Of a stretch of DNA of 39,747 nt, positions 24,545 to 27,401 are shown piece by piece; within the stretch, counting starts at the first letter, position 1; each line of letters opens with the position of its first letter. The notes beneath the pieces were generated by a model that was not told where the DNA came from, did not search any database, and worked only from the letters and a program-made list of their open reading frames with translations. The DNA lies in assembly GCF_020179405.1 (NCBI RefSeq), contig NZ_JAICBZ010000036.1, positions 1-39,747 of the forward strand, read 5' to 3'. The stretch comes from Xinfangfangia pollutisoli. Its GTDB lineage: Bacteria; Pseudomonadota; Alphaproteobacteria; Rhodobacterales; Rhodobacteraceae. The position numbers were made by a program, and so were the translations under genes.

Positions 24545-25057
24545 ATGCCGAACCTGACCCGACAGACCCCCCGCCAGCGCGCCCATATGACCTATATGAT
24601 GGATGTGATGCGGCGCCTGGAATGGGACCTGCACAACACGATCGAACTGACCGGCCGCATCCCGGCGGAATGGCACGAGATCGCGCAGGCCACGCCGCGG
24701 TCGACCCGGGTGAAGGTTAATATCGGGCTTGAGGCCGATGTGGTGAAGTTCTTCAAGTCGATGGGCGCGGGCTACGGGCCGCGGATCAACGACGTCTTGC
24801 GCAGCTATATGCATGCGCGGCTGGCCGGCGTGATCCGTGGCGCCGAGACGATTGCGCATTACCGGGAACGGGCCGAGCGCCATGACGGGCCGAAACCCGA
24901 CTTCGGCGATCTGGCGCGGGAGATGGGCGAGGCCTGGGCAGATGAGGGGCCGGCGGTGGAACAGGCGGCGCGGGCGAAGATGCAGGAGGTGAAGCAGCGG
25001 CGGTTTGGAGAGGGCGGAGTGCCGGAGGGGGAGGAGGGGGTGCCTTGGGTTAGGTGA
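24545..25057 (+). CDS. Orphan BrnA-antitoxin-like protein
   Basis: A 170-aa protein with a BrnA-like ribbon-helix-helix segment, about residues 55-95: RVKVNIGLEADVVKFFKSMG, then GYGPRINDVLRSYMHARLAG. In BrnTA modules this region is the DNA-binding antitoxin. Here no BrnT toxin gene is adjacent on either side. The N-terminal 50 residues (RQRAHMTYMMDVMRRLEWDL) and the charged C-terminal tail (GGVPEGEEGVP) are longer than in a standard BrnA of about 80-100 aa. It may be an orphan antitoxin or a stand-alone regulator. It directly borders the AT-rich island. Confidence 0.7.
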   Translation: MPNLTRQTPRQRAHMTYMMDVMRRLEWDLHNTIELTGRIPAEWHEIAQATPRSTRVKVNIGLEADVVKFFKSMGAGYGPRINDVLRSYMHARLAGVIRGAETIAHYRERAERHDGPKPDFGDLAREMGEAWADEGPAVEQAARAKMQEVKQRRFGEGGVPEGEEGVPWVR

Positions 25058-25079
25058 GGGGGGGATGAAACTAACTAGA

Positions 25080-25655
25080 TTACTCCTCAGGTCTATGCAT
25101 TTTATCACTCAAATAGTACATTCCTAAGAAAGTGGCGACAAGCATGTGAAATAGAAGAAACAAGAAAATGACAAATCCAACCCATTGCAGCAAGAAGCTG
25201 GCCCCCTCAAACTTTGCATCCGGTCCAATAAGGAATGGTACAATCAGTGAAAATAGAAAAAGTATCATAGAAATTGCGCTACAGTAGCCGAACAGAAGCG
25301 ACAGGAACTGGCGCATTGTTAGTTCGCGGATCACCCATTGTCCCTTGTCAAGGTGCCGTATCTCCAGTGAATCGGTCATCTGAAACTTTTTGTCGAATCC
25401 GTTCTGGCCGACAAATGTTGAAACTGCTGCCAAGGACGCAATATAAAAGGGCGCAAGAATTGCAAGAACCTGAGAGAACCCGCTAACTAGACCGTCTGAG
25501 GTAAGTAACTCGTATCTGCTGAAAGTGCACAACGCTACTGTGACGGAGAGAGTTAGAATTGAAGGAATAAGTACGTTATACCTCCAGGCGTATCCATGCT
25601 GGATTCGAATGTAATTAAATATACGAAGGGGGATGCTCTTTTCTATGAAATCCAT
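25080..25655 (-). CDS. Four-TM membrane protein of AT-rich island
   Basis: 191 aa from ATG 25655. The upstream stop and this start overlap as TGATG, indicating translational coupling. An in-frame GTG one codon earlier is less likely. Four transmembrane helices are predicted, about residues 27-46, 60-83, 116-143 and 153-178, with short loops and a cytosolic loop at 84-115 (GFDKKFQMTDSLEIRHLDKG). The N-terminus MDFIEKSIPLRIFNYIRIQH is amphipathic. No known family was recognised. Base composition is far from the surroundings (23 of 60 G+C in lines sampled at 25141 and 25561) and codons are A/T-ending, so it is foreign. It may act as the membrane effector or anchor of the soluble partner; this is inferred only from coupling. 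Confidence 0.8.
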   Translation of the reverse strand: MDFIEKSIPLRIFNYIRIQHGYAWRYNVLIPSILTLSVTVALCTFSRYELLTSDGLVSGFSQVLAILAPFYIASLAAVSTFVGQNGFDKKFQMTDSLEIRHLDKGQWVIRELTMRQFLSLLFGYCSAISMILFLFSLIVPFLIGPDAKFEGASFLLQWVGFVIFLFLLFHMLVATFLGMYYLSDKMHRPEE

Positions 25656-26608
25656 CACGGCGGCATGGCTCCCTTCATTTTTTCAACGAGGTCGTTTCTA
25701 ATTTCGTTTTCGCAACTACGCAGCAGGGTTTCGAACCCGTCGAGCCTAGTTTGCCGAATTAGGAAATCATCGGTGATATCTGGGAGATCAAGATCTAGCT
25801 TCTCTGTCTTTCGGCGATCCTCTGCTTCAATAACAATTTTCGCTGACATGAGGCCTTCCTTTCTGCTGGAAGTAATCTTTTCCTTTAGCCAGCTAATTGC
25901 GCCTTCCCCAGTTGGCCTCCCTTGGACTTGAATTTCTACTTGTTGCTTTGTTACGACGGGGTACTTCCCTTCGCCAAAACCGTCTTCTTTGGTAGAAGCC
26001 GTCTCCAAGTGAACTCCTAACAAGACGCCACCTGAAGACAAGATGCTCTTAATTGTGCTAGATTGGTGGCCTCGTAGGTTGAGGCGCACTCCATACTCCT
26101 GATCTACTTTTGCTCCTGGCTTCCGGCGCTTCTCAGTGAAGAAATCTCGGCATGCGGTATTGAGGCAGGCCATCATTAGAGACCTGGAAACGGAGTCAAC
26201 ATTTTCTACTATTGTGGGGTATGCTGAAGTAGCTTCGTGCGGCTCTGCAAGGTCTATTAACATGTGCGCCGATACTGCATGAATTTCTTTTTCAAGAAGC
26301 TCTAAGCGCCTAAGTCCGCGTGTTTCAATATTTTCTGCGGTGCCTTCAGAAATTTCTGGGTCACTATATCGAAAGAGAATTATCACATAGTCGCCATCTA
26401 TCCGGATATCGTGAATTCTTCCAGTCGCTAAGCCGGTGCTCTTTACAGGTAGCTCCCCCTTCTTGCACTTCTCTGCAAGCGCTTGAAATACCGCACGCGC
26501 GGTAGGTGGGGGAAACCTGTCATAGAGGGTGCTTATGCCGATCTCGCAGACGAAAACATACCGGTGTGAAGTGGATATCAAAGGCTCCCCCAAAACCCAA
26601 GAGGCCAA
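25655..26608 (-). CDS. Unrecognised soluble protein of AT-rich island
   Basis: 317 aa if read from TTG 26608. Its frame is closed by TGA three codons upstream, so the start must be TTG 26608 or later (TTG 26581 has GGGGGAG just before it), or the protein begins in another frame (see 26520-26711). No signal peptide or membrane helix. Readable blocks: YVFVCEIGISTLYDRFPPPT, GRIHDIRIDGDYVIILFRYS, AVSAHMLIDLAEPH, YPTIVENVDSVSRSLMMACL, and a C-terminal Glu/Lys-rich stretch. The mixed beta-strand and helix pattern resembles no family I can name. It is translationally coupled to the four-TM protein. A foreign origin is indicated by AT-rich DNA. Confidence 0.7.
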   Translation of the reverse strand: MASWVLGEPLISTSHRYVFVCEIGISTLYDRFPPPTARAVFQALAEKCKKGELPVKSTGLATGRIHDIRIDGDYVIILFRYSDPEISEGTAENIETRGLRRLELLEKEIHAVSAHMLIDLAEPHEATSAYPTIVENVDSVSRSLMMACLNTACRDFFTEKRRKPGAKVDQEYGVRLNLRGHQSSTIKSILSSGGVLLGVHLETASTKEDGFGEGKYPVVTKQQVEIQVQGRPTGEGAISWLKEKITSSRKEGLMSAKIVIEAEDRRKTEKLDLDLPDITDDFLIRQTRLDGFETLLRSCENEIRNDLVEKMKGAMPP

Positions 26609-26711
26609 ACCACTTCAATCGGTAGTCGGCAATCGTCCGTCCGTCAATATCGCTCGCGTCTCGGCTCAATAGAGCGGAAAGCAGCTTAAGAGATGCAAGT
26701 AGTGCGGCCAT
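26520..26711 (-). CDS. Short ORF preceding and overlapping the island's first gene
   Basis: A 63-codon ORF with an ATG at 26711, out of frame (+1 relation) with the 317-aa gene and overlapping it by 89 nt. It reads MAALLASLKLLSALLSRDAS, then an acidic/basic stretch (DIDGRTIADYRLKWFG), and runs into GFGGAFDIHFTP. It could be (a) a real small coupled protein, (b) the true N-terminus of the 317-aa protein separated by a frameshift (mutation, sequencing error or programmed slip), or (c) non-coding. Its start codon lies at the centre of a 10-bp inverted repeat. No ribosome-binding site is obvious. Confidence 0.35.
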   Translation of the reverse strand: MAALLASLKLLSALLSRDASDIDGRTIADYRLKWFGLLGFGGAFDIHFTPVCFRLRDRHKHPL

Positions 26712-26727
26712 AGGTCAACTACTTGCA
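26694..26727. promoter_or_regulatory. Operator-like inverted repeat at the head of the island operon
   Basis: TGCAAGTAGT (26694-26703) and ACTACTTGCA (26718-26727) are perfect 10-bp arms with a 14-nt spacer. The spacer contains the ATG of the short ORF (26711-26709). Placement at the head of the operon suggests repressor binding or an RNA hairpin that hides the start. It could also be the boundary of the inserted DNA. Confidence 0.55.
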
Positions 26728-26747
26728 ATCGCTGGCGATTTCTTTAG

Positions 26748-27401
26748 TTACAGGATCTTCTGACCCGTCTTCGCCCAGTCCTTCATGAACTGCTCCAGCC
26801 CCTTGTCGGTCAGCACATGCCCCGCCATGCCCTTGATCACCGAAGGCGGCGCGGTCATCACGTCGGCGCCGATCAGGGCGCATTGCGAGGCGTGGTTCAG
26901 CGTGCGGACCGAGGCGGCCAGGATCTGGGTCTGGAAGGAATAATTGTCATAGACCTGGCGGATATCGGAAATCAGCTCCAGCCCGTCGAGGTTGATGTCG
27001 TCCAAGCGCCCGATGAAGGGCGAGATGAAGGTCGCGCCGGCCTTGGCGGCCAAAAGCGCCTGGTTGACCGAGAAGCACAGCGTCACATTGACCATGTGGC
27101 CCTCGCCCGACAGCACCTTGCAGGCCTTCAGCCCGTCCCAGGTCAGCGGCACCTTGACGGCGATGTTCGGGGCGATCTCGGCCAGCTTGCGGCCCTCGGC
27201 GATCATCTCGGGGGCGGTCAGCGCCACCACCTCGGCCGAGACGGGGCCCGAGACGAAGGAGCAGATCTCTTTCGTGACCTCAAGGATGTCGCGGCCGGAT
27301 TTCAGGATCAGCGAGGGGTTGGTGGTGACGCCATCCACCATGCCCAGGTCGTTCAGCTCGCGGATCGCCTCGACATCTGCAGTATCGACGAAGAATTTCA
27401 T
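26748..27401 (-). CDS. tal: Transaldolase (small TalC/FSA-type)
   Basis: 217 aa from ATG 27401, with AAAGGAG 8 nt upstream. A class I aldolase-fold enzyme of the pentose phosphate pathway that forms decamers in this subfamily. The N-terminus [20 protein letters not shown] and [13 protein letters not shown] are diagnostic. The Schiff-base Lys is in [11 protein letters not shown]. At the two positions that distinguish fructose-6-phosphate aldolase (Gln, Tyr) from transaldolase (Glu, Phe), this protein has Glu in SAEVVAL and Phe in [10 protein letters not shown]. That points to true transaldolase activity. It is divergent from priA, and its stop abuts the AT-rich island. Confidence 0.93.

Follow-up and report, generated by a model that had tools for sequence, protein, structure and literature searches.

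The low-G+C insert in the window (the whole 39,747-nt stretch analyzed) carries two coupled genes, here called A and B, which we read, with a probability of roughly 0.78, as a divergent member of the RexABpp/PDC-M53 family: a two-gene exclusion system of the growth-arrest type, directed against phages and horizontally acquired as cargo. Support from this analysis comes from family membership, tight A-before-B pairing, the mobility of the relatives, the position of a foreign insert at a cargo site, and one conserved residue. The kind of system is itself known; the new elements are that PDC-M53 appears to be the same as RexABpp, that the family is large and mobile, and that the cargo site is exchangeable.

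With this assignment an anonymous PADLOC candidate, PDC-M53, would gain a tested biological identity of RexAB type, and hence so would at least 90 clusters of pairs. According to the available text of PMC12894663, only five RexAB-like systems have been described so far, and the activation of lambda RexAB is still unexplained after 70 years. This diverse family, some members of which stand alone on chromosomes outside phage regulation, may offer simpler material for this question, and the conserved positions of A and B, together with Y182 of B, are candidate sites at which to test it.

The insert and its chromosomal site

The features of the locus are:

25060–26751, no strand: low-G+C insert between the 3' ends of the BrnA-like (+) and transaldolase-like (−) genes, delimited by blastn against the congener G011 and by G+C
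24545–25057, plus strand: left flank, BrnA-antitoxin-like gene (PF14384, E 3.8e-10), convergent with the insert genes
26748–27401, minus strand: right flank, transaldolase / fructose-6-phosphate aldolase gene (PF00923, E 1.2e-60)
25655–26581, minus strand: gene A, RexA-type soluble protein of 308 aa, TTG start (PDC-M53A, E 8.9e-15; AF2 pLDDT 93)
25080–25658, minus strand: gene B, RexB-type four-helix membrane protein of 191–192 aa, overlapping the A stop (PDC-M53B, E 3.2e-35; AF2 pLDDT 92)

G+C is 0.469 over 25060–26751, compared with 0.674 in the 15 kb to the left, 0.684 on the right side and 66.4% over the whole window; by gene it is 0.482 in A and 0.435 in B. None of 694 other 1692-bp stretches of the window has a value under 0.616; of 393 segments of 500 bp, 15 have G+C below 0.55, and all of these lie on the island or at its edge. 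GC3 is 0.48 in A and 0.49 in B, against 0.81–0.90 in five neighboring genes. In a blastn comparison with the nearest congener, G011, homology ends at position 25059 of the window and restarts at 26752. The sequence-only reading had described an AT-rich island at 25060–26747 with an abrupt drop in base composition and a change in codon use; both traits are confirmed, and its limits proved almost exact.

That reading had also placed the island at a junction of core genes, but the BrnA-like gene does not look like one. The transaldolase gene is present in 13/13 genomes of the genus (its own included), whereas the BrnA-like gene is found at the locus in one of 12 congeners, G011, and is absent where transaldolase and DUF484 are adjacent. 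The latter arrangement, with no cargo, is seen in three congeners (L203, L205, and L210), and the surroundings of transaldolase differ in the remaining ones. The BrnA-like gene (89% identical), DUF484, and xerC are common to the window and G011. No BrnT partner was noticed beside the BrnA-antitoxin-like gene at 24545–25057.

When the locus was compared across relatives, neither A nor B was found beside transaldolase in any of the 12 other congeners (1.5 kb examined in three, 3–15 kb in nine). The same slot in G011 (L216:13142-14266) is occupied by another low-G+C gene. Its product (374 aa) carries the N-terminal domain of type I restriction HsdR (PF04313, E 9.4e-9, 35.8 bits vs a cut-off of 25.1). 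Because homology with G011 breaks at 25059 and 26752 and a different gene lies between these points, the gap where the two convergent genes end has taken up unrelated cargo in each of the sister genomes. No PADLOC model matches the 374-aa HsdR_N gene, which suggests that the slot in G011 may hold an undescribed defense gene. No direct repeats of at least 14 bases were detected in 24900–26900, and no tRNA in the window.

Genes A and B

The reading frame of A is open to a TTG at 26608 (25655–26608, 317 aa); we placed the start at the TTG at 26581, because the proteins of two relatives, L009 and L095, begin at that point (L095 judged by eye). B has 192 aa if read from a GTG, with a four-base overlap with A, and 191 aa if read from an ATG, in which case it overlaps the A stop as TGATG, as noted from the letters alone. 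A soluble protein of about 300 aa coupled to a four-TM protein of about 190 aa had been read from the letters, and the models agree. The AF2 model of A (pTM 0.84) contains no TM helix, and that of B (pTM 0.88) has long helices at residues 24–46, 57–81, 115–144, and 153–184, with a hairpin between the second and third; B is thus a predicted four-helix membrane protein. A small ORF upstream of A (26520–26711) is taken as non-coding because, apart from the window's own DNA, the loci compared contained nothing related to it at E < 0.05.

The best surviving alternative, though an unlikely one, is that the insert is decayed or silent cargo: a pair that descends from the family but has lost its function or its expression in this host. 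Such cargo would accord with the TTG start of A, with the lack of a promoter-like site upstream of A (sites in 24900–26900 are no more numerous than in shuffled sequence), and with a search of 100 relatives in which A matched its own genome alone. Against this, the two coupled reading frames remain intact across almost the whole of the profiles, and the models of A and B are confident.

Assignment to the RexABpp/PDC-M53 family

In the sequence-only reading neither protein was recognized, but each is matched by PADLOC and PHROGs profiles. In PADLOC, A matches PDC-M53A (PDLC04696) over profile positions 5–315 of 320 and B matches PDC-M53B (PDLC04699) over 7–187 of 188, nearly the whole profile in both cases; in PHROGs they match phrog_16499 and phrog_8257, both without an assigned function. 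PADLOC labels PDC-M53 as a candidate anti-phage system, without a mechanism, and the name was not met in the literature searched. A PDC-M53A model is matched by each of the 74 members of the A alignment at E ≤ 0.1, and conserved positions are R7 and H106 in A and F71, A74, L76, A77, A78, and R116 in B. As anticipated, neither protein was assigned to a metabolic or structural family: Pfam gave no match at E ≤ 1 and NCBIfam none near its cut-off, and the aligned relatives have only scattered weak Pfam matches among those listed (the best 25 of 51 and the best 25 of 32 families).

RexABpp (PP_5643/PP_5644), carried by prophage P1 of Pseudomonas putida, is a RexAB-type defense pair described in a 2026 paper (PMC12894663). 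Deletion of either gene is reported to sensitize the host to phages; RexApp dimerizes and binds DNA without sequence preference, and its over-production leads to growth arrest that depends on RexBpp and to membrane leakage, with the RexBpp change Y181H relieving toxicity (PMC12894663). The available text of the same paper further reports that two-hybrid assays gave no contact between RexApp and RexBpp, that RexApp supplied in trans failed to restore defense, and that no depolarization was observed. Its main text names neither PADLOC nor DefenseFinder.

A viral contig in our collection (L238, IMG taxon 637000222) carries a CI-like gene, two small ORFs, an A gene of 330 aa, and a B gene of 188 aa. 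We take this taxon to be P. putida KT2440. Its A protein has a mass of 36.6 kDa, compared with 37.5 kDa reported for RexApp with a His6 tag, and its B protein has W25, F35, L55, S145, G153, and Y181, six of the seven RexBpp mutation positions reported in the available text; at the seventh, T103, it has D103, with T at 102 (PMC12894663). On the strength of this gene layout, mass, and residue agreement, the L238 pair fits RexABpp. Since its proteins match PDC-M53A at E 8.4e-157 and PDC-M53B at E 2.8e-72, PDC-M53 and RexABpp seem to form a single family; the putative RexApp matches five PDC-M53A models.

The window pair appears to be a divergent member of this family. By blastp, window B aligns with the putative RexBpp at E 4.5e-17 (30% over 183 aa) and window A with the putative RexApp at E 0.017 (23% over 179 aa); A shares 51 of 299 aligned positions with it, and this distant protein is tied in through the family profiles. 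Common to both pairs are PADLOC models for each protein, gene order, tight spacing, a soluble protein followed by a four-TM protein, and near-invariant residues that include Y181/Y182. Y182 of window B aligns with RexBpp Y181, and the position is Y or F in 79/79 aligned rows; by this alignment, one residue needed for RexBpp toxicity is conserved in window B, which carries a different residue at the other five residue-matched mutation sites. The window pair differs from RexABpp in its divergence and in the lack of an adjacent CI repressor, and its function is a prediction. The suggestion of a small antiphage pair on foreign DNA is thereby upheld at the level of the family, both proteins falling in PDC-M53 together with the putative RexABpp.

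Pairing, frequency, and genomic contexts of the relatives

No relative emerged from an initial search of genome contigs with B alone. With a profile built from ten B proteins, genome contigs gave 105 relatives and viral contigs 144; the analysis used the 80 best from each set. The homologs are paired rather than scattered singly, as a two-gene system had been expected to be: in 169/174 loci, A immediately precedes B on the same strand (the 174 include the window itself twice and some near-identical loci). The genes overlap or lie within 20 nt in 162 loci and are never more than 100 nt apart. Of the five loci without A, L011 has a short B, L091 has masked upstream DNA, and L022, L040, and L046 show no A-like ORF upstream. 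Clustering at 70% identity reduced 156 pairs of L015–L174 to 90 clusters, with overlap or a gap of ≤ 30 nt in 87 of them. Frequency among the genomes sampled is low, with B present in 8/292 genomes of the order and 2/398 of the phylum sample (own genome counted in both).

The contexts of the pair are varied. In Shigella phage SfII it lies, reversed, between antiterminator Q and holin; near copies occur in 9/5426 E. coli genomes, with the one prophage examined showing the same arrangement, and in Salmonella phage F1055 holin genes follow it. Two tailless Vinavirales prophages of Vibrio (L002 and L003) carry the pair at one genome end, adjoined in L003 by an integrase-like gene; the pair takes up about a tenth of these 13.5–14.6 kb genomes. 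On the Sulfitobacter plasmid pDSM110093_d (L225:679-7761), a type ISP restriction-modification gene is followed after 18 bases by A, B, and a recombinase gene. L025 likewise has an ISP-domain gene just upstream of A (2/150 scanned genome-contig neighbors carry ISP domains), and a copy on an Acinetobacter plasmid has IS66 genes downstream. By visual inspection, P2-like tail genes precede the pair in its nearest relative (L015/L095), and core genes surround it in L044.

Neighbors were scanned at E ≤ 1e-5 for 43 loci (172 neighbors, the first 150 scanned). Among the best 25 of 134 families listed were HTH_3 (7), Peptidase_S24 (5), ResIII (4), Type_ISP_C (2), HSDR_N (2), and Vsr (2), and the same neighbors gave single matches to many PADLOC models; as these counts are of families, not loci, and have no control set, no defense-linked fraction is given. 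On balance, we favor the view that Rex-type systems form a large mobile family reaching beyond phages, not a rarity of a few temperate ones. PDC-M53/RexABpp would then occur in tailed and in tailless PM2-like prophages, on plasmids beside restriction enzymes, and as stand-alone chromosomal defense cargo in an exchangeable slot, functioning without prophage or CI.

CI-like repressors were sought with a profile seeded on the lambda and Hafnia CI proteins. In 18 of 82 eligible clusters one lies ≤ 1 kb upstream on the same strand (10 within 200 nt), whereas two lie upstream on the opposite strand, one downstream on the same strand, and one downstream on the opposite strand; the corresponding counts before clustering are 33, 3, 2, and 1. 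A repressor upstream in part of the family would suit a lysogeny-regulation module, stranded on the chromosome, in which A acts on phage gene switches and not on foreign phages, much as RexA is reported to bias the lambda switch (PMC11077077). We nevertheless judge this decidedly improbable: no CI gene adjoins the window pair, many relatives lie outside the repressor slot, and RexABpp, in the available account, left its own repressor promoter unaltered (PMC12894663).

Relation to lambda RexA–RexB

The family resembles lambda RexA–RexB in having the soluble before the membrane gene and, in part of PDC-M53, in its CI-operon position, lambda rexA–rexB lying behind cI. It differs in showing no clear sequence similarity once shuffled controls are considered, and in PADLOC the lambda proteins match no models other than RexA and RexB. 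The window pair does not lie downstream of a CI repressor in a prophage; its flanks are the BrnA-like and transaldolase-like genes. RexApp is reported to resemble RexA by HHpred and DALI, 8.8 being the DALI Z-score given for it (PMC12894663), and RexA (8TWQ) is described as a two-domain RdgC-like protein (PMC11077077).

Homology with lambda Rex by sequence was considered and set aside, as the initial resemblance of A to the RexA C-terminus and of B to the IAAL region of RexB did not clearly beat the controls. With a RexB profile, five B proteins came out on top of 14,859 ORFs, with borderline values: the best B score was 13.7 bits against up to 13.2 for shuffles, the lead over other ORFs was 8.9 bits against up to 8.7, and reversed RexB placed 14 B proteins in the top 20, compared with 15 for real RexB. 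The RexA profile placed 10 A proteins in the top 20; for 20 shuffled profiles the mean was 8.0 and the maximum 20. A RexApp-subfamily profile scored at best 22.9 against RexA (shuffled maximum 23.7), and the published HHpred match of PP_5643 to RexA was not reproduced by the profile comparisons made here. The window proteins had no match to the Pfam RexA and RexB families at E ≤ 1; a search for the RexB family in 249 genomes found none and was uninformative, its controls being silent too.

In Foldseek, 8TWQ was absent among the best 50 of 934 rows for the A model, whose top match had E 0.048; the best 50 of 934 rows for A and of 233 for B included no convincing PDB relative, and searching solved structures by sequence gave nothing convincing for the window proteins. 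The order of strands and helices in the A model is compatible, by eye only, with the available description of RexA. In the viral fold library BFVD, four uncharacterized phage proteins (A0A8S5MSR5, A0A8S5S8L2, A0A6J5Q1Z2, and A0A8S5QGP5) match the fold of A at E < 0.001 with 10–12% identity, and these possibly represent further Rex-type families.

Proposed mechanism and remaining alternatives

The mechanism we propose for the window pair is transferred from RexABpp of P. putida. A would act as a dimer that binds DNA irrespective of sequence and senses phage DNA or an intermediate of replication or recombination; once activated or over-produced, it would switch on B. B, an oligomeric four-helix protein of the inner membrane, would then compromise the membrane and stop growth, so that the phage could not complete its cycle and the infection would be aborted. 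That the window pair is expressed and active in its native host, and acts there against phages, is an inference, as is what triggers it.

A toxin–antidote pair, in which one protein restrains the other and defense is incidental or the roles are reversed, is very improbable. It has a precedent in the Rex-like pair of Butters, where the soluble protein is held in check by the membrane protein (an account given in the available text of PMC12894663), and a BrnA-antitoxin-like gene adjoins the insert. That gene, however, is common to G011, lies outside the insert, and is convergent with it, and the membrane protein of RexABpp is reported to be the effector (PMC12894663).

The sequence-only reading had compared the pair with Kiwa, and the likeness extends to one membrane and one soluble protein of similar sizes: in nine Kiwa loci, KwaA has 172–221 aa with TM helices and KwaB 288–324 aa. 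These loci were obtained by searching 299 phylum genomes for the KwaB family, which gave 11 matches, two of which (L180 and L185) were dropped with the KwaB gene broken up or at a contig end; in 61 family genomes there were no matches, and the controls were silent too. The TM gene comes first in all nine, whereas soluble A comes first in the window pair. Profile similarity is absent by hhalign (A vs KwaB, p 0.4; B vs KwaA, p 0.15), no Pfam family matches window A at E ≤ 1, and KwaB (PF16162) is absent among the best 25 of 32 families listed for the 74 A members. A divergent Kiwa system, with KwaA as the membrane protein and KwaB as its soluble partner, is thus scarcely credible, and homology is unsupported. 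One KwaA protein (L178:605-1159) also matches PADLOC PDC-M39A at E 7.7e-4, which suggests that the candidate PDC-M39 may be a relative of Kiwa.
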